Of a stretch of DNA of 64,000 bases, positions 12,018-48,347 are shown one piece after another. Every line of letters starts with the position of its first letter. Position 1 is the first letter of the stretch. The notes below the pieces were generated by a model. The model saw only the letters and a list, made by a program, of their open reading frames with translations, was not told the origin of the DNA and searched no databases. Origin of the DNA: Haloarcula rubripromontorii (lineage in GTDB: Archaea; Halobacteriota; Halobacteria; Halobacteriales; Haloarculaceae); assembly GCF_001280425.1 (NCBI RefSeq), contig NZ_LIUF01000004.1, positions 124,001 to 188,000 of the forward strand, read 5' to 3'. Made by a program: the position numbers and the translations under genes.

Positions 12018-13097
12018 TCAGTTCTCAGTCGCGTCACGCACAGCCGCTGGCGGCGAAACGCCGTGTCCCGGCCCGTCAATATCGATACGTGGACCGAACG
12101 CCATCGATGGCGGCGTGTCGTCGAGCAACAGGTGGCCATCCAGATCGACGTAGTCGAAGGCACCGAGCCCGGCGGCAAGGTGGGCGCTGGTCGCAATCCC
12201 GGTCGCACCTTCGAGCATACAGCCGAGCATACAATCGAGCGAAGCGGCTTCGGCGACCGTCGCAATTGCCGCTGCCCCGAGGAGCCCAGACTTCCCGAGT
12301 TTGACGTTGATCACGTCGGCTGCCCCGTCGCGAACCACGGCGGTTGCGTCCGCGGGCGTGAATACGGCCTCGTCGGCGGCGACGGGGACCGAGAGTCTGT
12401 CACGGGTCCTCGCAAGACCGCGGATGTCGTCTTTCGGTGTCGGCTGTTCGACCAGAGCGAGGTCAACCCCGGCCGTCGCCACCTCGTCGACAAACTGCTC
12501 TGTGGCCTTCGGCGTCCAGCCCTGATTCGCGTCCACGGTAATCGTTGCGTCGGGTGCGGCGTCTGCGACCGCAACCGTTCGAGCCACGTCGTCGTCGATC
12601 ACGCCGCCGGTTTTGACCTTGATATGGTCGAAGCCCGCGGCCGCGGCGCGCGTGGCCCGCTCGGCTGCCGCGTCGGGCGCGACTATCGGAACGGTGATAT
12701 CCGTCGTAACGGGGGTCGGCGCTCCGCCGAACAGTTCCGAGAGCGGGATTCCCCGGTCGCGACAGTACGCGTCGAGCAGCGCCGTCTCGACGGCGAACAG
12801 TGCCGAAACCGCTCCGGGTACTGCCGCCCGCACCTCACTGACGAGTTCGCGGTAGTCGGCGAGGGACGCCCCCTCAAGCATCGACGTTACCGACCGGGCA
12901 GTCGCCACGGCGGCCGCCTGTGTCTCGCCGGTCACCGGCGGTAACGGGGACCCCTCACCGTGGCCGACGATGCCCGAGTCAGTCTCCACTGCGACGACCA
13001 GATTCCGTGCTTTCTCCCGGGTTCCGAGCGAGATCTCGAACGGCTCGCGGAGTTCGCGGTCGAGCGGTTCGACGGAGACGCGGTCGATACGAGTCAT
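12018..13097 (-). CDS. Enolase-superfamily epimerase, DgcA/dipeptide-epimerase-like
   Basis: 359 residues of the mandelate-racemase/muconate-lactonizing subgroup. The catalytic set is visible: KxK motif HIKVKTGG (second-strand base), metal ligands in TVDANQGW, LVEQP and AADEAVF, and the opposite base lysine in NVKLGKSG. The lid domain is residues 1-120. Close relatives include L-Ala-D/L-Glu epimerase and DgcA, which racemises N-acetyl-glutamate. Its start overlaps the stop of the upstream DUF1611 gene by 4 bp, which favours the DgcA role: N-acetyl-D-Glu to N-acetyl-L-Glu. There is no peptidoglycan in archaea, which argues against a murein-peptide role. Confidence 0.88.
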   Translation of the reverse strand: MTRIDRVSVEPLDRELREPFEISLGTREKARNLVVAVETDSGIVGHGEGSPLPPVTGETQAAAVATARSVTSMLEGASLADYRELVSEVRAAVPGAVSALFAVETALLDAYCRDRGIPLSELFGGAPTPVTTDITVPIVAPDAAAERATRAAAAGFDHIKVKTGGVIDDDVARTVAVADAAPDATITVDANQGWTPKATEQFVDEVATAGVDLALVEQPTPKDDIRGLARTRDRLSVPVAADEAVFTPADATAVVRDGAADVINVKLGKSGLLGAAAIATVAEAASLDCMLGCMLEGATGIATSAHLAAGLGAFDYVDLDGHLLLDDTPPSMAFGPRIDIDGPGHGVSPPAAVRDATEN

Positions 13098-14137
13098 AGC
13101 ACCTCCAGAACGGCCGTAAGGAGTGTCTCCGGCCCGTCATCGTCGTAGATGTTCGCCGCTGGAAGCCCTGTTCTAGCCGTTTCTTCCTCTGGGTCCCCCC
13201 ACGTGGAGAGAGCAGCGACTGTCGTCTCTGTGAGGTCGGTAATCGCGCGGCGTTCGGCCTCGACACCGGCTACAGTGAGGTCGTCGAAGTGGGATCGAGT
13301 CTCCCGAGCGGGGTCGTCGGCCAGCACGACTGCGTCGGGGGCCGCTCCGTGGAGCAGTCCGAGCGTCACCCCGCCGTATGCGGTGTGCGTGAGGGCGGCC
13401 TGCCCTTCGACGAACACGATGTCGTGGTCCGCCGCAACGTCGAGTACCATGTCCTCGACGACGCCAGAGACGAAGTCAGCCGGTACCCGGTCGATAACGA
13501 CGCCGCGGTCCGCGCCGACGAGGATGCCGGTCTGTCCCGTCGCGACCCAGCCGGCATCGAGTCCAGCATCGGTCGCGGCCCGATACAGTTCAAAGGTTGT
13601 CGTTCGCTTCCCGACTGCACAGTCAGTCCCCATCGTCAGGACGACGTCTGCGTCGGCCTCAGCCCCGCGGCCGTCACCAAGCGTCAGATCAGCGACGGCT
13701 GGAGGTTTCCGAACGTCGACGAGGTCGACACCGTGTTGCTGTGCGCGCTCGGTCCAGACCGGGCGCTCACTCAGAAAGACGTGCAAGCCGGAGACGATAT
13801 CACAGCCTCGCTCCATCGCGTGCCTGATTGCCTCGACCCATGACTCCGGGAGGTCACCCCCAGCGGGCGCGACGCCGATGACAAGGACGGCCGCGTCCGG
13901 GGCTCGATCCAGCGCTTCGGTGACGGTCCCGACGACCGGGACGTCGTCGGCAGCAGGCCACTCAAGGGCCGCTCCAGCGTGAGGGCTTGAACACGTCGAG
14001 TCCACGACGGCCTGCGCGTCGAACAGCTCTCCGTGCATAACGATACCGTTGGCCGTCTTGCCTTCCGGCTGGCCGAACTCCCCCTCTGCGAGTACAACGG
14101 CGGGCGTGCCTTCGTCGTATTTTCGCCGCAAGTCCAT
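13094..14137 (-). CDS. DUF1611 protein, DgcN-like D-glutamate N-acetyltransferase candidate
   Basis: 347 residues from the ATG at 14137 (MDLRRKYDEG); the longer reading to 14167 would need TTG. The C-terminal half holds a P-loop-like MGTDCAVGKRTTTFELYRAA (residues about 165-184), followed by GWVATGQTGILVG and HDIVFVEGQAALTHTAYGG, signatures of the DUF1611 family. In bacteria a DUF1611 protein, DgcN, acetylates D-glutamate ahead of the epimerase DgcA. The 4-bp overlap with an enolase-superfamily gene reproduces that pairing. The N-terminal half (about 1-120) is a Rossmann-like domain. Older annotations call such proteins NAD-dependent epimerase-like; the role is inferred from context. Confidence 0.82.
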   Translation of the reverse strand: MDLRRKYDEGTPAVVLAEGEFGQPEGKTANGIVMHGELFDAQAVVDSTCSSPHAGAALEWPAADDVPVVGTVTEALDRAPDAAVLVIGVAPAGGDLPESWVEAIRHAMERGCDIVSGLHVFLSERPVWTERAQQHGVDLVDVRKPPAVADLTLGDGRGAEADADVVLTMGTDCAVGKRTTTFELYRAATDAGLDAGWVATGQTGILVGADRGVVIDRVPADFVSGVVEDMVLDVAADHDIVFVEGQAALTHTAYGGVTLGLLHGAAPDAVVLADDPARETRSHFDDLTVAGVEAERRAITDLTETTVAALSTWGDPEEETARTGLPAANIYDDDGPETLLTAVLEVL

Positions 14138-14272
14138 ACTGAACGACACCGCGGGCGTGACTGACAAACCAGAGCCTTACATGTGTGGCTCCCGGTGAGA
14201 ATACTGGAGGACGACCCGTAATGAAAGCGAGACCAGACGAGCGCTATCGCGCCACAGAACCCGGGGAGAACG

Positions 14273-15019
14273 ATGTCCGCTGACGGCTCTGATATGGCCG
14301 CTGCCTCGGACAGCGACGGTCTTCAGTTGACGCTCGAACTGGAGCATCCCGACTGCTGGATGCGGGAAGTGACGGCGGCCACTGCAGCCAAACTGCTGGT
14401 CAACGCGGCGTATCTGGTCGACGGGAAGGTCAAAGCCCACGTCGTCGCATACGCTGAGTCGGCGGCCGCGGTCGAGGCGCTCGTTGCGGCGACCCGGGCA
14501 TCCGACCACACTCATGCAGTCACAGAAATGGATACTCGTCGTAGCTTCGGCGGGATATCGGCACCGGTAAACAAAGCGACGCGCACGCTCCTCGTCGAGT
14601 ACGGCCCCGAGGAGAGCATCCACGACGCGCTGGTCTCACACGGGTTCATGAATCAGGAGCCGATCCGAATCCGCGACGGGACCGAGTACTGGACGGTTGC
14701 TATCGACGAATCGCGGACGACAATACAGGAGAAACTCGACGCCGTCTGCGCACAGAAAGACGCGACGATCACCGTGACCCAGATTACGTCCGCGACCACC
14801 GGAAGCAGAGAGCGCGACGAACTGGCTGTCCGACAGCTTTCCGACAGGCAGCGGGACGTGTTCGAACTGGCCCGCAAACGCGGCTATTACGACTACCCGA
14901 GAGAGGTAAGCGGGAGCGAGCTAGCCGACGAACTCGGTATCGCGAAGACGACGCTTCACGAACATCTCCGGAAAGTCGAGGCCACGCTTCTCGGTCCGAG
15001 AGACGCCGACCGGGGCTGA
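14273..15019 (+). CDS. HTH-10 (Bat-type) transcriptional regulator
   Basis: 248 residues. The C-terminus is the HTH-10 domain named after the bacterio-opsin activator: LSDRQRDVFELARKRGYY followed by SGSELADELGIAKTTLHEHL, a winged-helix-type DNA reader. The N-terminal 180 residues form the sensing region usual in these regulators, with no recognisable PAS or GAF motif. It is divergent from the DUF1611/epimerase operon with about 135 bp between starts, so it is the natural candidate to control that operon and itself. Whether it activates or represses is not visible. Confidence 0.88.
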   Translation: MSADGSDMAAASDSDGLQLTLELEHPDCWMREVTAATAAKLLVNAAYLVDGKVKAHVVAYAESAAAVEALVAATRASDHTHAVTEMDTRRSFGGISAPVNKATRTLLVEYGPEESIHDALVSHGFMNQEPIRIRDGTEYWTVAIDESRTTIQEKLDAVCAQKDATITVTQITSATTGSRERDELAVRQLSDRQRDVFELARKRGYYDYPREVSGSELADELGIAKTTLHEHLRKVEATLLGPRDADRG

Positions 15020-15118: not shown

Positions 15119-15871
15119 CTACTGGACTCCGAGTTCCGACTCCAGTTCCTCAACGACGTCCTGCAGCATCGATGCGAGTTCGTCGTTCGGCGGCAATCGA
15201 TACAGGGGGCCAGAGATGTCGAGCGCCCCGAGAACACCGCCGTGTGGGGCGGTGACCGGCACGCCGACCGACCGAAGCCCCTCGACTGCCTCCTGATCGT
15301 TCACCGAATAGCCGCGCTCGCTCGTGCGTTCGATGTCTTCCAAGAGGGCGTCGCGGTCGGTGATTGTGTACTCCGTCTCTGCGGGCAGTCCCCACCGGTC
15401 GAGAATCTCGTTGACTCGGGTCTCCGGCAACGCGGCGAGGATTGCCTTGCCAACTGCCGAGTTGTGCAGGTAGTAGTACCGGCCCACCTGGAACCCTTTC
15501 GACGGGACGTTAGCGACGACGTTGAACAGCGTTATGGCACGCCCGTACTCTTCGACGGCGAATGTGACCTCCTCCCCACAGCTGTCGGCGAGTTCGTGCG
15601 TTTTGCGACGGGCGACCTCGTACCACTCGTTCCGGGTCCGAGCGCCCTCTCCGAGGTGGAACAGCTTCATGCCGAGTCGGTACTGCTCGCCTCGCTTGAC
15701 CAGATACTCCTGGTCCAGAAGTGTCTTGAGATGGACGTGGATGGTACTCGTCGAGAGGTCCAGCCGGTCTGCAAGCTCACTCATTCGAGCCTCCCCCAGC
15801 TCGTTTACCGCATCGATGATCGCGAGGGAAGTTTCGGTCGTCTGGAGACGACGACCGCTAGAGCTGTCCAT
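15119..15871 (-). CDS. IclR-family transcriptional regulator
   Basis: 250 residues: an N-terminal winged helix at about 10-70 (TTETSLAIIDAVNELG, MSELADRLDLSTSTIHVHLK) and a C-terminal IclR effector-binding domain (YYYLHNSAVGKAILAALPE, ERGYSVNDQEAVEGLRSVGVPV, GALDISGP). IclR proteins usually bind a small-molecule catabolite and control an adjacent catabolic or transport operon. It is divergent from the NhaC-family transporter. A TATA box (TTTTTTATAC, minus strand, 15894-15903) lies about 27 bp before its ATG, so its transcript is probably leaderless. Confidence 0.92.
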   Translation of the reverse strand: MDSSSGRRLQTTETSLAIIDAVNELGEARMSELADRLDLSTSTIHVHLKTLLDQEYLVKRGEQYRLGMKLFHLGEGARTRNEWYEVARRKTHELADSCGEEVTFAVEEYGRAITLFNVVANVPSKGFQVGRYYYLHNSAVGKAILAALPETRVNEILDRWGLPAETEYTITDRDALLEDIERTSERGYSVNDQEAVEGLRSVGVPVTAPHGGVLGALDISGPLYRLPPNDELASMLQDVVEELESELGVQ

Positions 15872-16086: not shown

Positions 16087-16201
16087 TAACAGCGACCGAA
16101 ACGGGATGAGGATTTACCAGAGGCGGCTCTGATGATTTGTTACCGCTGAGTTAGCTATTATCATGAACTTTTGCGTGTGTATTTCACGAGGCACAGAATG
16201 C

Positions 16202-17755
16202 ATGTCAGACACGGATAGTGGCGATGGGACTGAGATCGAGGAGATCTCTGGCCCAAATGTCGAAGCAATCGAGTTCTACGGCGGACGGTGGATGAGCGTT
16301 ATTCCCATAGCGCTGTTTATCCTGTGGGCGATTGTCCAGAGTGGCCTGTTCGGTATCGGGGATACGACTGGCCTTGTCGCGGGAATGCTCGTGGCGCTCA
16401 TCGTCGGGATGTTCTTCGCCAAAGGAGACTGGAAGAACTACGCGAACACCATCTTCGATGGGATGACGAAGCGAGTCGCCGCGACGGCAGTCGTCGCATG
16501 GCTCTGGGCAGGGATGTTCTCGAACACGCTCCAGGCAGGCGGCTTCGTCGGTGGACTCGTCTGGGCAGCGAACGCGGCCAACGTCGGGGGCGCACTGTTC
16601 CCAGCCGCCACGTTCATCCTCGCAGCGCTGTTCACGACCGGTATCGGCACCGGTTACGGCGCGGCAGTCGCGTTCTCGGCGCTTTTCTTCCCGGCCGGGA
16701 TCCTGCTCGGGGCGAACCCGGTGTTGCTGTTCGGTGCAATTCTCTCCGGGGCCGTCTTCGGGGACAACCTCGCGCCAGTCAGTGATACGACGATTGTGAG
16801 CGCAGTGACGCAGGACGCCGATATCGGCGGCGTCGTCGCGTCGCGGTTCAAGTACGCTGTTATTGCGGCGGTACTGGCGCTTGCGGCGTACATCTTCGCC
16901 GGAAACGCGATGGCCGGGCTCGACATCTCCCAGCAAGCACAGGACCTGTTCGTCCAGAACAGCGAACCAGCGGGACTGTTGCATCTCATCTCCATGCTCG
17001 TCGTCATCGTGACGGCAGTCATGGGCCGACACATTGTCGAAGCCATTTCGTGGGGACTTATCGTTGCGGTTGTCTTCAACGTCGTTTTCGATCTCGCACC
17101 GCTGAGTGACGTGTTGCTGTTCAAAGTTCCTGAAACGTCAGCAGCCGCGAGCTGGGCCGGTTCGCTCCCCATTGCCGAAGTGGTCGCGCCGCAAAACGCC
17201 GGCGTCACCGGCTCGATCTACAACGGTGCAGCCGGGTTCTTCCCGCTGATCGTTCTCGTATTGCTCATCGTCGCCGGATCGGAGATCATGATCCGCGGCG
17301 GTGGCTTCGAAGCGATACAGGAATGGCTCCTCGAAAATGTCGCAACGGGCGTCCGAAAAGCCGAGACGACGATGGTGGTCGGCACCGCCCTCGTCAACTC
17401 GATGATCACGATCAACACGGCGGCAGAGATCGCGATCGCGCCGTACATCGCCCGCATCGGCCAGCGGTACAACATCAACAGCTACCGCCGGGCGAATATC
17501 CTTGACGCGAACACCTCGGCGCTCGGGTACATCTTCCCGTGGGGCGGCGGCGTCCTCATCGGCTTCGCGACGCTACAGGGTCTCCCGGAGCAGTACGAGT
17601 GGTTCACCAGCGCGATGATTGTCAACCCCGTCCAGGTGTGGCCGTACGTCTTCCACGGCTGGTTCCTGTTCGGTGTGTTCCTCCTCTCCGCGCTGACCGG
17701 CTTTGGGCTTGAGTACACCACTGACCGCAAATCCAAGGATGTGACCCGTCTATGA
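16202..17755 (+). CDS. NhaC-family Na+/H+ antiporter or Na+-coupled amino-acid transporter
   Basis: 517 residues from the ATG at 16202 (MSDTDSGDG); an in-frame start at 16163 would add an unlikely 13-residue arm. About 12 hydrophobic helices. FGDNLAPVSDTTIVSA (residues about 185-200) is the NhaC-family signature with conserved Asp residues in the transport path, and INTAAEIAIAPYIARIG with DANTSALGYIFPWGGG is the second repeat counterpart. Family members exchange Na+ for H+ or take up solutes such as malate/lactate. The IclR regulator and downstream OCD-family enzyme suggest an organic, perhaps amino-acid, substrate. It overlaps the next gene by 4 bp. Confidence 0.9.
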   Translation: MSDTDSGDGTEIEEISGPNVEAIEFYGGRWMSVIPIALFILWAIVQSGLFGIGDTTGLVAGMLVALIVGMFFAKGDWKNYANTIFDGMTKRVAATAVVAWLWAGMFSNTLQAGGFVGGLVWAANAANVGGALFPAATFILAALFTTGIGTGYGAAVAFSALFFPAGILLGANPVLLFGAILSGAVFGDNLAPVSDTTIVSAVTQDADIGGVVASRFKYAVIAAVLALAAYIFAGNAMAGLDISQQAQDLFVQNSEPAGLLHLISMLVVIVTAVMGRHIVEAISWGLIVAVVFNVVFDLAPLSDVLLFKVPETSAAASWAGSLPIAEVVAPQNAGVTGSIYNGAAGFFPLIVLVLLIVAGSEIMIRGGGFEAIQEWLLENVATGVRKAETTMVVGTALVNSMITINTAAEIAIAPYIARIGQRYNINSYRRANILDANTSALGYIFPWGGGVLIGFATLQGLPEQYEWFTSAMIVNPVQVWPYVFHGWFLFGVFLLSALTGFGLEYTTDRKSKDVTRL

Positions 17756-18024
17756 GCATGCTCAGCAAGTTCCTCACCGGGATGTCCTTCCGGTCGACCA
17801 CGCCGACGTTCGAGGCGGGCGAAGAGATAGAAGTGTACGTCACGGAGTTCGACGAGGAATCCGGCGAACTGGTCGCACAGGTCGGCGAGACCCGCCTCTA
17901 CTTCGAAAACGGTGAGGCGGATATCGTCGGCTGTCGCGTGCTCGCAACGGTCGAATCGTTCGACGACGCCGAACACCGCGGCCGCGTCACTCACCGGAAG
18001 ACGCTGTCACAGGGGTCGTTCTAA
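17752..18024 (+). CDS. Small TRAM-like/OB-fold protein (DUF7513-like)
   Basis: 90 residues, translationally coupled to the transporter (ATGA overlap). After an amphipathic start MSMLSKFLTGMSFRST the rest forms one compact beta-rich domain (AGEEIEVYVTEFDEESGEL, QVGETRLYFENGEADIVGCR, VLATVESF) resembling TRAM/OB folds: two Gly-linked strand pairs and a final amphipathic strand. TRAM proteins bind RNA in archaea. Why one would be co-translated with a membrane transporter is unknown; it may be regulatory. The fold is inferred from pattern only. Confidence 0.75.
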   Translation: MSMLSKFLTGMSFRSTTPTFEAGEEIEVYVTEFDEESGELVAQVGETRLYFENGEADIVGCRVLATVESFDDAEHRGRVTHRKTLSQGSF

Positions 18025-18103: not shown

Positions 18104-19117
18104 ATGAGCAATTCACTATATTCCACAGCACGACAGCACAACCAGACAACTATCGTTCCCAGTACGGACATCGAAGCGACCGTCGAGATGGCAGACCTCG
18201 TCCCGGCCATCGAAGCTGCATTCGCCGCATACGAAAACGACACGGCGCAGATGCCACCGAAGTCCTACATCGACCTGCCACAGCACAACGGGGACTTCCG
18301 GTCGATGCCGGCCTACCTCGAAACGGACGACTGGGAGGCGTCGGGCATCAAGTGGGTGAACGTCCACCCGGACAACCCCGACGAGTTCGACCTGCCGACC
18401 GTGATGGGGACGCTCGTGTACACGGACCCCGAGAGCGGCTTCCCGCTTGCCGTGATGGACGCGACGACGCTGACGATGAAGCGAACCGGTGCGGCCGCCG
18501 CCGTGGCGACGGACCACCTCGCTATCGAGGGGGCATCTTCGCTGGGTATCATCGGTGCCGGCGTCCAGTCCTACACGCAACTGGAGGCCATCTCGCAGGT
18601 GCGGCCGATCGAGTCCGTCGTCGTTAGCGACCTCGACGACGACCGCGTCCAGCGGTTTATCGACACCTTCGGCGACGAGTTCGACGTGCGAGCCGGCACA
18701 ATCTCAGAGGCCGCCCAGTGTGACGTCCTGTCGACGGTCACGCCAGTCGAAGACCCCATCGTCACGCTCGACGATCTCGGGGAGCACACCCACGTCAACG
18801 CCATGGGTGCCGACGCCGAAGGGAAGCAGGAACTCCACACCGAGGTCATCCGCGAGGCGACGCTTGTCATCGACGACTTTGAACAGACGACCCACTCCGG
18901 TGAGATAAACGTCCCCTGGAGTACGGGCGATATCGACGAGTCGGATATCGATGCCGAACTCGGCGAGATAGTCGTCGGGAACGCACCGGGCCGGGAGGAC
19001 CTGTCCGGGATTACCGTCTTCGACTCGACCGGGCTCGCGATTCAGGACATCGCTGCCGCACGCATCGTGTACGAATCGCTCGGAGACGACAGCGGACACC
19101 GCCTCGAAATGGTGTAA
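18104..19117 (+). CDS. Ornithine cyclodeaminase / mu-crystallin family enzyme (alanine-dehydrogenase-like)
   Basis: 337 residues. The substrate-binding part shows MPPKSYIDLP, GIKWVNVHPDNPDEFDLPTV and MKRTGAAAAVATDHLA; the Rossmann core starts with LGIIGAGVQSYTQLEA and VVVSDLDDDR. The end has VNAMGADAEGKQEL and VFDSTGLAIQDIAAA, all typical of OCD/mu-crystallin proteins. Members act as ornithine cyclodeaminase (proline plus ammonia), archaeal alanine dehydrogenase, or imine reductases, all NAD(P)-dependent. Being 79 bp downstream of the coupled transporter and TRAM-like genes, it is probably the metabolic enzyme for the imported compound. Confidence 0.9.
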   Translation: MSNSLYSTARQHNQTTIVPSTDIEATVEMADLVPAIEAAFAAYENDTAQMPPKSYIDLPQHNGDFRSMPAYLETDDWEASGIKWVNVHPDNPDEFDLPTVMGTLVYTDPESGFPLAVMDATTLTMKRTGAAAAVATDHLAIEGASSLGIIGAGVQSYTQLEAISQVRPIESVVVSDLDDDRVQRFIDTFGDEFDVRAGTISEAAQCDVLSTVTPVEDPIVTLDDLGEHTHVNAMGADAEGKQELHTEVIREATLVIDDFEQTTHSGEINVPWSTGDIDESDIDAELGEIVVGNAPGREDLSGITVFDSTGLAIQDIAAARIVYESLGDDSGHRLEMV

Positions 19118-21497: not shown

Positions 21498-23207
21498 ATG
21501 ACCGCAGCGCGCGCCTGGTGGAAGGAAGCGGTCGTCTACCAGATTTATCCACAGAGCTTCAACGACAGCGACGGCGACGGCGTCGGCGACCTGCAGGGCG
21601 TCATCGAGCGCCTGGATTACGTCGCCGACCTCGGCGTCGACGTCATCTGGCTCAACCCCGTGTACCAGTCGCCACAGGTCGACAACGGCTACGACATCAG
21701 TGACTACCGGGCCATCCACGAGGCGTACGGCACGCTGGAAGACTGGGAGGAACTGCTGGACGAAATTCACGCCCGGGACATGCGGCTCGTCATGGACCTC
21801 GTCGTCAACCACACCTCCGACGACCACGAGTGGTTCCAGCGCTCGCGCCGGGACGAGGAGGGCTACCGCGACTACTACATCTGGCGCGAGGGCGGCACCG
21901 ACGCGGACGTCGACCCCGTGCCCCCGAACAACTGGACCACCGGCTTCGGCGGATCGGCCTGGACCTACGACGAACAGGTCGAGGCTCAGTACCTCCACCT
22001 GTTTCACGAACGCCAGCCCGACCTGAACTGGGAGAACCCCGACGTCCGCTCAGATGTCTACGAGATGATAGAGTGGTGGCTGGCGAAGGGCATCGACGGC
22101 TTCCGGATGGACGTTATCAACCTGATCTCCAAGCCGGAGGGCCTGCCCGACGGCGACCCGGACGAGGGGTGGGTCGGCATCGAGCAGTTCGCTAACGGCC
22201 CTCGGACACAGGAGTTCCTCGAAGAGATGGCCGCCGAGACGTTCGACAACTACGACTCGATGACGGTCGGTGAGTGCGTCGACATCGACGTCGACACCGC
22301 CGGCGACTACGTCAGCGCCGACGGCCCGCTGGACATGGTGTTTCACTTCGAGCACATGCTCCTCGACCAACAGGAAGGGTGGTGGACTATCGAAGACTGG
22401 TCGCTGCCCGAGCTGAAGTCGGTGATGGCCGAGTGGCAGACCGAACTCGACGGCTGGAACACCGTCTACCTGGGCAACCACGACCAGCCCCGAATCGTCT
22501 CCCGCTTCGGCGACGACGGGGCGTACCGCGAGGAGTCGGCCACGCTGCTGGCGACGTTCCTGCTCACGCATCAGGGAACGCCGTTCCTGTTCCAGGGCGA
22601 CGAGATCGGGATGACGAACTGCCCATGGGAATCGGTCGAGGAGATCCGGGACGCAGACGCGTCCAACCGCGTCGAACTCGCCCTTGAGTCGGGCGATATC
22701 GACAGCTACGACGAGGCACGCGACGTTGTCGAGTTCCGCTCGCGGGACAACGCCCGGACGCCGATGCAGTGGGACGACTCCCGGAACGCCGGCTTCACCG
22801 ACGGCGACCCCTGGATAAAGGTCAATCCGAACTACGAGGAGGTGAACGTCGCTGCGGCCGAAGCACGCGAGGACGGGATTCTCTCGTACTACAGGGACCT
22901 CATCGACCTGCGGAGCGATCTAGACGTACTCGTGTACGGCGACTACGAACTATTACTGCCCGACCACGAGACGGTGTACGCCTATCGGCGCACGCTCGAC
23001 GACCCGGCGGCCGATATCGACGACGTGCTGGTCGTTTTGAACGTCTCACCGACGGCCACGCGCATCTCGGTCCCGGTCGAAGCCGAGGCAACACCGCTGT
23101 TCGGGAACGAACTGGACGCGGCGGCCGAATCCGGCAGCCACGACGGCACGGACCTGGAACTGCAGCCGTACGAAGCGCGCCTCTACGAACTTTCAGAACA
23201 ACAATGA
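21498..23207 (+). CDS. GH13 alpha-glucosidase (oligo-1,6-glucosidase-like), copy 1
   Basis: 569 residues. The GH13 (alpha/beta)8 barrel is complete: YQIYPQSFNDSDGDGVGDL, region I DLVVNHTSD, region II GFRMDVINLISK with the nucleophile Asp, region III MTVGECVD with the acid/base Glu, region IV YLGNHDQPR with the transition-state Asp. A C-terminal beta domain ends YEARLYEL. It should release glucose from alpha-1,4/1,6 oligosaccharides; no signal peptide, so it is cytoplasmic. The N-terminus and QPR after HD resemble oligo-1,6-glucosidase, trehalose-6-phosphate hydrolase and halophilic alpha-glucosidases. It overlaps the next gene by 4 bp and a leaderless promoter precedes it. Confidence 0.94.
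   Translation: MTAARAWWKEAVVYQIYPQSFNDSDGDGVGDLQGVIERLDYVADLGVDVIWLNPVYQSPQVDNGYDISDYRAIHEAYGTLEDWEELLDEIHARDMRLVMDLVVNHTSDDHEWFQRSRRDEEGYRDYYIWREGGTDADVDPVPPNNWTTGFGGSAWTYDEQVEAQYLHLFHERQPDLNWENPDVRSDVYEMIEWWLAKGIDGFRMDVINLISKPEGLPDGDPDEGWVGIEQFANGPRTQEFLEEMAAETFDNYDSMTVGECVDIDVDTAGDYVSADGPLDMVFHFEHMLLDQQEGWWTIEDWSLPELKSVMAEWQTELDGWNTVYLGNHDQPRIVSRFGDDGAYREESATLLATFLLTHQGTPFLFQGDEIGMTNCPWESVEEIRDADASNRVELALESGDIDSYDEARDVVEFRSRDNARTPMQWDDSRNAGFTDGDPWIKVNPNYEEVNVAAAEAREDGILSYYRDLIDLRSDLDVLVYGDYELLLPDHETVYAYRRTLDDPAADIDDVLVVLNVSPTATRISVPVEAEATPLFGNELDAAAESGSHDGTDLELQPYEARLYELSEQQ
22746..22831 (+). repeat. 86-bp segment identical to 24488-24573
   Basis: Within the first alpha-glucosidase, 86 consecutive bases match the second gene exactly, including all third codon positions, while flanking regions differ at many synonymous sites. 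Confidence 0.85.
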
Positions 23208-24928
23208 TGTCATCGCAGATGCTTTCCGACGGTGAACTGGACCGCGAATGGTGGAAAGAAGCAGTCGTCTATCAGATTTACCCACGCAGTTTTAGCGATA
23301 GCGACGGCGACGGCGTCGGCGACCTGCAAGGCATTATCGACCGACTGGACCACGTCGCCGACCTCGGCGTCGACGTCATCTGGCTCAACCCGGTCTATGA
23401 CTCTCCACAGGAAGACAACGGCTACGACATCAGCGATTATCAGACTATCTACGATGAGTTCGGAACGATGGCCGACTGGGAAGCGCTGCTCGCGGAAGTC
23501 CACGACCGTGATATGCGGCTCGTCATGGACCTCGTTGTCAATCACACGTCGGACCAACACGAGTGGTTCCAGAAGTCCCGACAGCGCGACCCGGAGTACG
23601 AGGACTACTACATCTGGCGTGAGGGCGGCACTGACGCGGACGGCGAGCCCGTGCCGCCGAACAACTGGGAGTCCTTTTTCGGGGGCTCCGCCTGGGAGTT
23701 CGACGCGGAGCGCGGCGAGTACTACCTCCACCTGTACGACACCTCACAGCCGGACCTGAACTGGCGTACCGACGCCGTTCGACAGGATGTCTTCGACACT
23801 ATCGAGTGGTGGCTGGAGAAGGGCATCGACGGCTTCCGGATGGACGTCATCAACCTCCTGTCGAAAGTCGAGGGCCTGCCCGACGGCGACCCGGACAGCG
23901 AATGGATCGGCTCCGAGCATTTCATCAACGGGCCGGAGCTGTCGTCGTATCTGACGGCACTAGACGAGTCAGTGCTGTCGAACTACGACGTGATGACCGT
24001 CGGCGAGATGCCACAGCTCACCGTCGAATCGGCTCGGGAGTACGCTGGTACAGACGGCCCGCTGGACATGGCGTTTCACTTCCAGCACACGAAACTCGAC
24101 TACGACGACGGCGAGCGGTGGTCGGTCGGCGACTGGAGCCTGCCGGAGCTGAAAACCATCGTCGACCGCTGGCAGGACGGGCTGGCCGAGGACGGCTGGA
24201 ACACGCTGTACTGGGAGAACCACGACCAGCCGCGGAGCGTCTCCCGCTACGGCGACCCCGAGAACTACCGCCGGGAATCCGCGACGCTGCTCGGGACGTT
24301 CGTCCTTACGCTCCGTGGCACGCCCTACATCTACCAGGGGCAAGAACTCGGGATGACCAACGCCGACTGGGAGACGATGGACGACCTCCGAGACGTGGAC
24401 GCCATCAACCACGCGCGGGAACTACTCGAGCGAAACGATGTCGAGGACTACGAGGACGTGAAAGACGTGGTCGGCTACCGGACCCGCGACAACGCCCGGA
24501 CGCCGATGCAGTGGGACGACTCCCGGAACGCCGGCTTCACCGACGGCGACCCCTGGATAAAGGTCAATCCGAATTACAGGGATATCAACGCCGCTGCCCA
24601 GCGAACGGATGTGGACTCCGTCTACAACTACTACCGGCGACTCATCCAGTTGCGCTCCGACAGGGACGTGCTGGTGTACGGAGACTACACCGACTTACTT
24701 CCCGACCACGAAACCGTCTTCGCGTTCACGCGGTCGCTGTCGACGGACGCGGGAACCGAGCGGGTTCTGGTCGTCCTACACTTCGATGACGGGAGGCAAA
24801 CGGTTTCGCTCCCGGTCGAGTTTGCCGATGCGACGCTGCTTGCGGGCAATTACGACCGCGACGACGCGGATCCGGAAACGGTGACGCTTGCGCCGTACGA
24901 GGCTCGCGTCTACGAGCTATTCGACTGA
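23204..24928 (+). CDS. GH13 alpha-glucosidase, copy 2 (tandem paralogue)
   Basis: 574 residues from the ATG at 23204 (or 23207), in an ATGATG that overlaps the first gene's stop; the frame stays open upstream to 22769 but only as an antisense-like artefact of copy 1. Catalytic regions match copy 1: DLVVNHTSD, GFRMDVINLLSK, MTVGEMPQL and YWENHDQPR. Differences at substrate-facing spots (ECVD versus EMPQ, LGNHD versus WENHD) suggest a different linkage or chain-length preference. Cytoplasmic. Translational coupling implies the two enzymes are made together and act on related substrates. Confidence 0.94.
   Translation: MMSSQMLSDGELDREWWKEAVVYQIYPRSFSDSDGDGVGDLQGIIDRLDHVADLGVDVIWLNPVYDSPQEDNGYDISDYQTIYDEFGTMADWEALLAEVHDRDMRLVMDLVVNHTSDQHEWFQKSRQRDPEYEDYYIWREGGTDADGEPVPPNNWESFFGGSAWEFDAERGEYYLHLYDTSQPDLNWRTDAVRQDVFDTIEWWLEKGIDGFRMDVINLLSKVEGLPDGDPDSEWIGSEHFINGPELSSYLTALDESVLSNYDVMTVGEMPQLTVESAREYAGTDGPLDMAFHFQHTKLDYDDGERWSVGDWSLPELKTIVDRWQDGLAEDGWNTLYWENHDQPRSVSRYGDPENYRRESATLLGTFVLTLRGTPYIYQGQELGMTNADWETMDDLRDVDAINHARELLERNDVEDYEDVKDVVGYRTRDNARTPMQWDDSRNAGFTDGDPWIKVNPNYRDINAAAQRTDVDSVYNYYRRLIQLRSDRDVLVYGDYTDLLPDHETVFAFTRSLSTDAGTERVLVVLHFDDGRQTVSLPVEFADATLLAGNYDRDDADPETVTLAPYEARVYELFD
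24488..24573 (+). repeat. 86-bp segment identical to 22746-22831
   Basis: The partner of the identical block in copy 1, separated by 1742 bp in the same orientation; encodes the conserved RDNARTPMQW region. Confidence 0.85.
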
Positions 24929-45984: not shown

Positions 45985-47220
45985 ATGAGCCACGACTCGC
46001 CGCCGGTCCGCCGCCTCGCGGACTGGGATCACGAGCGTCTGGAGGCGGTGGCTGCCGAACACGGCACGCCGCTGTACGTCGTCGACCTCGACCGCGTCGC
46101 CGAGAACTACGAGCGGTTCACCGCGGCGTTCCCCGACGCCCACGTCATGTACGCCGCGAAGGCCCACACCGGGCAGGCCGTCCTCTCGAAACTGCTTGAG
46201 ACAGGCGCTGACATCGAGTGTGCCGCCTGGGGAGAGCTCCAGCGGGCTATCAATGCCGGGGCAGACCCGAACACGCTCCAGTACACGGCCGTCAATCCGC
46301 CGGATCGCGACCTCGACCGTGCCGTCGAGCTGGCCGCCGAGAACCCCGGGCTGACGATTACAGGAGGTGCGCGGGACACCTTCGACCGCCTCGAAGAGCG
46401 CGGCTACGATGGCCGGGTCGCCATCCGCATCAACCCCGGCATCGGCACGGGCCACCACGAGAAGGTCGCCACCGGCAAGGACGCCAAGTTCGGCATCCCC
46501 TACGACGAGGTGCCCGAGGTCGCCGCAGACGTGCGCGAGCGGTTCGACCTCGTCGGTCTGCATGCCCACGCCGGTAGCGGCGTCCTCCACGATGACCTGG
46601 ACGACCACTGTCGGGCCATCGGGAAGGTCGCCGACATGGGCCGGGAGGTCATCGCCGACGGCGCGGAGCTGGACTTTGTCGACTTCGGCGGCGGCTTCGG
46701 TGTGCCGTACCGCGAGACGACCGAGCCACTGGACATGGACGTGGTCGGCGAGAAGGTCCGCGAGGCCGTCGGCGACCTCGACGCGCAGGTCAAGCTCGAA
46801 CCCGGCCGCTACGTCGTCGCCGACGCCGAACTGATTCTGAGCGAGGTCAACACGATCAAAGAAACGCCCGCGGCGACGGTCGTCGGCGTCGACGCCTCGC
46901 TGGCGACGCTCATCCGGCCGGCGATGTTCGGCTCCTACCACCCGATTCGGAACGTCACCGCGCCGGACCGGGAGGCCGAGCCGGTGTCGGTCGGCGGCCC
47001 CTGCTGTACGAGCGCCGACGTGTTCTGCACTGACCGCCCCGTCGCTCGACCCGAGCGAACTGACCTGCTGGCAATCGGCAACGCCGGCGCATACGGGTAC
47101 GAACTGGCGAACCAGTTCCACTCCCAGCCCCGTCCCGCGGAAATTGCCTTCGAGGGCGGCGAGACGCGAGTTGTCAGGGAGCGCGAGACGCTGACGGACG
47201 TGACCCGCATGGAACAGTAA
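45985..47220 (+). CDS. lysA: Diaminopimelate decarboxylase
   Basis: 411 residues from the ATG at 45985. The PLP Lys is in MYAAKAHTGQAVLSKL; GLHAHAGSGV and the FGGGFGVPY loop bind PLP phosphate; GPCCTSADVFC carries the substrate-binding Cys of the second subunit; GNAGAYGYELANQF ends the fold. It makes L-lysine from meso-DAP. It overlaps dapE by one base (TAATG), suggesting coupling. Archaeal lysine synthesis via DAP is thereby confirmed for this organism. Confidence 0.95.
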   Translation: MSHDSPPVRRLADWDHERLEAVAAEHGTPLYVVDLDRVAENYERFTAAFPDAHVMYAAKAHTGQAVLSKLLETGADIECAAWGELQRAINAGADPNTLQYTAVNPPDRDLDRAVELAAENPGLTITGGARDTFDRLEERGYDGRVAIRINPGIGTGHHEKVATGKDAKFGIPYDEVPEVAADVRERFDLVGLHAHAGSGVLHDDLDDHCRAIGKVADMGREVIADGAELDFVDFGGGFGVPYRETTEPLDMDVVGEKVREAVGDLDAQVKLEPGRYVVADAELILSEVNTIKETPAATVVGVDASLATLIRPAMFGSYHPIRNVTAPDREAEPVSVGGPCCTSADVFCTDRPVARPERTDLLAIGNAGAYGYELANQFHSQPRPAEIAFEGGETRVVRERETLTDVTRMEQ

Positions 47221-48347
47221 TGTCGTTCGACATCCCCTCATTCCACCGGCGGGCCGTCGAAACGCCGTCACACGAGCGCGTCGACGAGATGCGCTCACTG
47301 CTGGTCGACACGCTGGAGGACGCCGGCGAGTACCCGGAGGTAGACGGCCTCGGCAACGTCGTCGTCTCACGAGGCGATCCCGACGGGACCCACATCCTCC
47401 TCAACACGCACATCGACACCGTGCCGCCACATCTGCCCTACGAGCGGCGGACGGAGCCGCCGGGACTGGACGAGACCGTCGATGGCACCGGCGGCGACGG
47501 AGACGGCGACATCGTCTGTGGTCGCGGGGCCTGTGACGCGAAAGGGCCACTCGTGGCGCTCCTTGATGCCTTCCTCACTGTGACGCCCGACGACGGCCGG
47601 GTGACACTGGCGATTTCCACCGACGAGGAGACCACACAGACCGGCGGCGCACACCTCGCGGACACCATCGACGCCGACGGCTACATCGTCGGCGAGCCAA
47701 CCGGCTTCGACGTGTGTACGGCCGCCCGCGGGCAGTTCGAGGGGACAGTCACCATCCACGGCGAGAGCGCCCACGCCGCCGACCCCGGCAGCGGCCACAA
47801 CGCGATTCGGGCCGCTGCGCCGATACTGCAGGCGATGGAGAGCTACGAGGACAAGAAAGGCCCGGGGGAACACGAAACGCTTGGCTACCCCATTCTCACG
47901 CCGTCGATGGTGGAGGGCGGCGAGGCGACCAATCAGGTCCCGGCAGAGTGTACCATCACCTTCGACCGGCGGAGCGTCCCGCCGGAAACGAGCGAGTCCT
48001 TCTGTGCCGACCTGCAGGCCCACCTCGAACAGTGGCTCCCGGAGTCGATGGGCGTCACCGTGGACCTCATCCGCCCGGACACGCCGTTCCCCGAGGCGTT
48101 CGCCACCGACGCCGACGCGGAGCTGGTCCGGACGCTACAGGAAGCCAGCGGCGGCGCAGTCCGGCAGTTCGGGGCCGCGACAGAGGCCTCGTATTTTGCA
48201 AGCAACGGGCCGACTGTGGTGTTCGGCCCCGGTGACCTGAGCGACGAAACAGGAGCGGTCGCTCACTCGAAACGCGAGTACGTCCGCCTCTCAGAAGTGC
48301 GAACCGCCGCGCGAGCCGTACGGGAGACGGTTGAACGGCTGATCTGA
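47220..48347 (+). CDS. dapE: Succinyl-diaminopimelate desuccinylase (M20)
   Basis: 375 residues of the M20 metallopeptidase family. LLNTHIDTVPPHLPY and RGACDAKGPLVALLDAF hold the zinc ligands and the bridging Asp, STDEETTQTGGAHLAD supplies the catalytic Glu pair, and VVFGPGDLSDETGAVAHSKREY ends with the last His ligand. The dimerisation lid is the middle part (about 170-280). Placed behind lysA and matching the DapD succinyl route, it removes succinate from N-succinyl-DAP. Related M20 enzymes (ArgE, LysK) are the alternative. Confidence 0.9.
   Translation: MSFDIPSFHRRAVETPSHERVDEMRSLLVDTLEDAGEYPEVDGLGNVVVSRGDPDGTHILLNTHIDTVPPHLPYERRTEPPGLDETVDGTGGDGDGDIVCGRGACDAKGPLVALLDAFLTVTPDDGRVTLAISTDEETTQTGGAHLADTIDADGYIVGEPTGFDVCTAARGQFEGTVTIHGESAHAADPGSGHNAIRAAAPILQAMESYEDKKGPGEHETLGYPILTPSMVEGGEATNQVPAECTITFDRRSVPPETSESFCADLQAHLEQWLPESMGVTVDLIRPDTPFPEAFATDADAELVRTLQEASGGAVRQFGAATEASYFASNGPTVVFGPGDLSDETGAVAHSKREYVRLSEVRTAARAVRETVERLI

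Follow-up and report, generated by a model that had tools for sequence, protein, structure and literature searches.

DgcN and DgcA, together with DgcR, reportedly form a D-glutamate catabolic pathway. The system comprises adjacent genes for a DUF1611 protein and an enolase-superfamily racemase, which carry out N-acylation and racemisation ahead of deacylation, and in Klebsiella and Vibrio a LysR regulator gene lies beside dgcN. In its title, as cited in PMC12363236, the paper on DgcN and DgcA (Yu et al. 2023, ISME J 17:537-548) names 'halophilic archaea', and on the evidence of that title an archaeal DgcN/DgcA pathway is not new. More distant relatives include Thermotoga maritima TM0796 (2g0t), a solved DUF1611-type structure to which no function is itself assigned, TM0006 (2zad, modelled as an L-Ala-D/L-Glu epimerase), and plasmid-borne pairs of Vibrio and Phaeobacter. 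A search of the literature for DUF1611 by name returned nothing relevant.

Here we describe the gene anatomy, conservation, phylogenetic placement, active-site differences and neighbour associations of a DUF1611/epimerase pair in a 64,000-nucleotide stretch of the Haloarcula rubripromontorii genome (the window). The pair resembles the DgcN-DgcA system in the adjacency of its two genes and, as we infer, in its chemistry, but it scores below both equivalog cut-offs, falls in another clade, lacks an arginine in the 20s loop of the epimerase and is accompanied by an HTH-10 rather than a LysR regulator. It is thus a sister of the pathway known for D-glutamate and most likely acts on a different amino acid.

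Results

Both genes are encoded on the minus strand, with the DUF1611 gene (designated DUF1611_B, 13094-14167) first and the gene for an enolase-superfamily (MR/MLE) epimerase/racemase (EPI_B, 12018-13097) downstream of it, and the two overlap by 4 bp (13094-13097). DUF1611_B, a member of the DgcN/TM0796 family, consists of a Rossmann-like N-domain followed by a P-loop domain; both domains (PF07755/PF17396) score above the gathering threshold (DUF1611_N and DUF1611_C, Pfam 2e-29 and 2e-62). The P-loop MGTDCAVGKRTT occupies residues 179-190 and contains GTDCAVGKRTT (180-190), in agreement with the family motif GTDxxxGK. The listed open reading frame begins with TTG at 14167, while the family alignment suggests that the true start is an ATG 10 codons further down, at about 14137. 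EPI_B contains MR_MLE_N and MR_MLE_C domains (Pfam 2e-17 and 7e-42) and carries the KxK motif, the D/E/D metal ligands and the second lysine of the MLE-subgroup racemases/epimerases; these residues (K160/K162, D189, E217, D242 and K266) are invariant in 33/33 aligned B-type epimerases. An earlier note on this DNA had described a P-loop DUF1611 gene overlapping an epimerase with a complete active site by 4 bp, and this description was confirmed in full. The closest named loci are those of other Haloarcula species, with a protein identity of 92-94%.

When DUF1611_B was used as a query against 391 Halobacteria genomes, a gap in the scores separated two types. Type B, to which the window protein belongs, comprises 58 matches of 371-772 bits in 54 of the 391 genomes, and type A begins below the gap at 246 bits. 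DUF1611 is present in 271/292 haloarchaeal genomes, mostly as type A. The B pair is located on plasmids in several species. Conservation of the gene overlap, which the earlier note had proposed to survey, was assessed in 42 B loci from outside Haloarcula and in 18 A loci. An EPI_B gene lies directly downstream of DUF1611_B in 32 of the 42 B loci, and the exact 4-bp overlap is kept in 27 of these 32 and in 12 of the 18 A loci; because the overlap recurs across both types, chance adjacency of the two genes was dropped as an explanation. The epimerase is not adjacent to DUF1611_B in the other 10 B loci, and four of the genomes concerned (G092, G084, G324 and G121) have an A-type epimerase only, so DUF1611_B may not always require EPI_B.

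A second pair, identified by a PF07755 match on contig C1 of the same genome (C1:164413-166571, corresponding to L034:5914-8072), represents the near-universal haloarchaeal type and was designated pair A. It has the same two protein families, gene order and 4-bp overlap as the window pair (DUF1611_A, L034:6960-8072; EPI_A, L034:5914-6963). A different HTH-10 gene (L034:9010-9675) and an NhaC transporter gene (L034:13556-15001) are found near pair A. A pairs are usually preceded by a conserved VLRF1/baeRF gene of the release-factor-like kind (L144:6934-7884 and 11 other A loci), and the HTH-10 subfamily of the window is not found near 17 of the 18 A loci.

The earlier note had proposed that the window pair is a DgcN-DgcA-like module for D-glutamate, that is, one which converts N-acetyl-D-Glu to N-acetyl-L-Glu. 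The proposal was right as to protein families, since DUF1611_B and EPI_B belong to those of DgcN and DgcA and have homologues among D-amino-acid and N-acyl-amino-acid genes, and the title of the pathway paper, with its mention of halophilic archaea, also favours it. Equivalence to DgcN and DgcA was not supported. Against the DgcN model (NF041892, equivalog cut-off 480 bits) DUF1611_B scored 191 bits and DUF1611_A 257 bits, and against the DgcA model (NF042940, cut-off 400 bits) EPI_B scored 168 bits and EPI_A 248 bits; all four are below the cut-offs, as is a Parahaliea protein (456 bits to NF041892), but pair A is in each case the higher scoring of the two. In the DUF1611 tree type A groups with annotated DgcN, while type B groups with TM0796 and the Vibrio/Phaeobacter plasmid proteins (support 95/96), and among the epimerases EPI_B clusters with TM0006, 3s5s and 3u9i (98/95) and is separate from EPI_A and DgcA/YcjG. 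Because several reference branches are long, the exact joins, including those to TM0796 and TM0006, are uncertain. The A/B split is identical for both partners, and EPI_A and DgcA/YcjG have indels and Y55 in common which EPI_B does not have.

The Vibrio and Phaeobacter plasmid pairs (Vibrio parahaemolyticus, L160:8899-11213; Phaeobacter porticola, L161:8965-11216) likewise consist of a B-side DUF1611 gene overlapping a racemase gene, but the partner is a PLP alanine/ornithine racemase and not an enolase-superfamily protein.

The two types also differ at active-site positions. In the 20s loop of the epimerase, 32/33 EPI_B sequences have L24-G25, whereas 19/19 EPI_A sequences have arginine, as do E. 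coli YcjG and two of three DgcA-type sequences (the annotated DgcA proteins of Klebsiella and Vibrio); the third, a DgcA-like protein from Parahaliea, is without the arginine, like EPI_B. Arg24 of B. subtilis AEE falls one alignment column over from the YcjG/EPI_A arginine; in the liganded AEE structure this residue presumably touches the Glu side-chain carboxylate, and we take the loop position to be a proposed Glu-binding position. Nothing on the AEE specificity residue was found in PMC3605383. DUF1611_B in turn has three near-fixed changes (H284D, N321S and D339N) at positions where H284, N321 and D339 are near-universal elsewhere, including in pair A. The missing arginine and the three changes in the partner protein point to a different substrate which, judged from these residues, is probably uncharged. 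Together with the model scores and the trees, they make D-glutamate an unlikely substrate of the window pair.

A structure model of DUF1611_B (pLDDT 91.8) matched TM0796, the closest solved relative (TM 0.87, 40% identity), as well as 2obn (TM 0.82-0.85) and 7xrj (TM 0.76), the last of which is titled 'N-acetyltransferase DgcN-25328'. Weaker matches were obtained to MurD/MurC, dethiobiotin synthetase and cyclic 2,3-diphosphoglycerate synthetase, which would suit an ATP-using mechanism. Such a mechanism forms part of an alternative reading in which EPI_B would epimerise L-Ala-D-Xaa or similar dipeptides delivered by Dpp transporters and DUF1611_B would be a P-loop enzyme that consumes ATP, such as a ligase or kinase, instead of an acetyltransferase. 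The best NCBIfam model for EPI_B is indeed the T. maritima L-Ala-D/L-Glu epimerase (NF041118; 266 bits, under the cut-off of 500), and its nearest relatives of solved structure include dipeptide epimerases. EPI_B also retains a DxD motif (D318xD320, 33/33 sequences) in the last barrel strand, which we take to be the binder of the dipeptide ammonium group in dipeptide epimerases; this motif does not discriminate between the two kinds of enzyme, however, because annotated DgcA carries it too.

The genes found near the pairs, counted on the basis of tblastn, bear on the same question. Dpp/Opp ABC permease genes (near 9-12/42 B loci vs 1/18 A loci) and S9 peptidase genes (6/42 vs 0/18) would suit a dipeptide route, but M20 ArgE/DapE-type deacylases (7-9/42 vs 1/18) and APC amino-acid permeases (8/42 vs 1/18) suit N-acyl amino acids better and, with the fold shared with a protein named as an N-acetyltransferase, leave a dipeptide substrate improbable. 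Amidohydro_3 genes are near 9/42 B loci and 0/18 A loci, and on plasmids of Natrinema and Haladaptatus the B pair lies directly downstream of a gene with the annotation 'D-aminoacylase'; an N-acylating enzyme next to such an activity could give a futile cycle, which is a possible difficulty for an N-acylation route. A single A locus (L150) has the permease/deacylase/HTH-10 cassette, which suggests that the A and B modules perform related chemistry.

On the Haladaptatus plasmid a further epimerase gene lies between the annotated D-aminoacylase and the B pair. This arrangement, in which Amidohydro_3/D-aminoacylase and two enolase-superfamily genes flank DUF1611_B, was observed in Haladaptatus pallidirubidus (plasmid, L164:6229-11108) and at L122, L126, L128, L130 and L132, and the DxD positions of the upstream epimerase are not Asp in these gene rows. 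In Halobellus salinus a proline racemase family gene (L043:6112-7182) is located upstream of the B pair.

Within the window, four further genes beyond the regulator have counterparts near DUF1611/epimerase pairs elsewhere. The first encodes an IclR-family protein (15119-15871, minus strand), possibly a second regulator; in another genus (L104/L051) its 62% identical homologue adjoins the pair. The IclR gene is followed on the plus strand by an NhaC-family Na+/H+-type transporter gene (16163-17755), a candidate for uptake of the substrate, and in L104 a 73% homologue of this gene comes immediately after the pair; a small DUF7513 protein gene (17752-18024, plus strand) overlaps the NhaC gene by 4 bp and accompanies NhaC in L104. 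The fourth gene encodes an OCD/mu-crystallin family dehydrogenase (18104-19117, plus strand), with archaeal alanine dehydrogenase as best model (346 bits, cut-off 409); its homologues lie near the pair in L044, L121 and L129, and it is a candidate downstream enzyme. No M20 gene adjoins the pair at this locus. The window does contain an M20 ArgE/DapE-type hydrolase gene at 47220-48347 (612 bits to PRK08651.1-5), possibly an N-acyl amino acid deacylase, though a biosynthetic role may apply. Two adjacent GH13 alpha-amylase genes (21498-24928), each with a full catalytic domain, have the look of a tandem duplication.

Transporters, deacylases, dehydrogenases and peptidases as neighbours argue against a flux in the opposite direction, in which the pair would produce D-amino acids, free or N-acylated, that are destined for the cell envelope or serve as osmolytes. 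Racemisation is in principle reversible, and since haloarchaea are without murein, D-amino acids for catabolism have to come from outside the cell; both points favour synthesis. The patchy, accessory distribution of type B and its occurrence on plasmids nevertheless suit catabolism, and a biosynthetic role appears very improbable.

The regulator gene HTH10_B (14273-15019, plus strand) is divergent from the pair, and its product has a C-terminal HTH_10 domain which exceeds the gathering score (PF04967, 6e-20; 71.3 bits vs a cut-off of 23.1). A structure model (pLDDT 75.6) places two beta-alpha-beta-beta-alpha-beta units in an ACT-like order before the HTH, and gave no confident match in the PDB. 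HTH10_B and the HTH-10 genes close to B pairs at six other loci form one clade (support 100/100), and this subfamily is near 28/42 B loci vs 1/18 A loci (Fisher p = 1e-5, with the related genomes not independent), so that proximity as mere background was dropped. The conserved partnership bears out the earlier suggestion that the divergent HTH-10 protein is the natural controller of the pair. It had also been stated that no archaeal version with an HTH-10 regulator is described: given the title of Yu et al. (2023) this does not extend to the archaeal pathway as such, but for the pairing of DUF1611/epimerase genes with an HTH-10 regulator no description was found in the literature searched.

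The two closest HTH10_B paralogues in this genome also adjoin genes of amino acid metabolism: the first (C7, L167:5814-10150) lies beside proline racemase, proline dehydrogenase and aldehyde dehydrogenase genes, and the second (C3, L168:196-7872) beside arginase, aminotransferase, glutamate dehydrogenase and Arg-type ABC transporter genes. The subfamily may be a family of local amino-acid catabolism regulators. Between the divergent genes of the window, a 30-bp block, GACTGACAAACCAGAGCCTTACATGTGTGG (14160-14189), is nearly unchanged across six Haloarcula species and is a candidate promoter/operator.

Discussion

The pair, which has its own regulator, probably converts D-amino acids to usable L-amino acids in this haloarchaeon. 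The reading that we favour, to which we would assign a probability of about one half, is that pair B is the second of two parallel modules for racemisation of N-acyl-D-amino acids in this genome, switched by the HTH-10 protein and with a neutral D-amino acid as the likeliest substrate. DUF1611_B would use an acyl-CoA to acylate, and probably acetylate, an imported D-amino acid at its amino group, and EPI_B would convert the N-acyl-D-amino acid to its L-form, with KxK and K266 as bases and D189, E217 and D242 as the metal triad. An M20 deacylase encoded elsewhere in the genome would then release the free L-amino acid, which a dehydrogenase or aminotransferase would oxidise. D-alanine, rather than D-glutamate, would be a natural candidate substrate because of the alanine-dehydrogenase-like neighbour gene. 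HTH10_B may sense the amino acid through its tandem ACT-like domains and switch the operon. The acyl donor, substrate, direction of flux and regulator ligand given here are those which we infer for the pair from sequence and predicted structure.

More tentatively, the haloarchaea may possess two diverged DUF1611-racemase modules, a near-universal one for acidic D-amino acids and an accessory, HTH-10-controlled one in which the remodelled DUF1611 protein serves another D-amino acid, with the regulator belonging to an undescribed archaeal family of amino-acid sensors found at separate catabolic operons. The novelty lies in a second module of different specialisation, together with its conserved HTH-10 regulator, and not in a first archaeal DgcN/DgcA. 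It follows as a warning that not every haloarchaeal DUF1611 gene should be annotated as dgcN.

The presence in one genome of two parallel modules with opposite states at the proposed specificity residue makes the question of substrate directly testable. In archaea without murein of their own, a dedicated inducible route for D-amino acids implies feeding on bacterial remains or on dissolved D-amino acids in brines, and the linked HTH-10 subfamily would suggest what class of ligand is likely to be recognised by a large group of archaeal regulators, few of whose signals are known.
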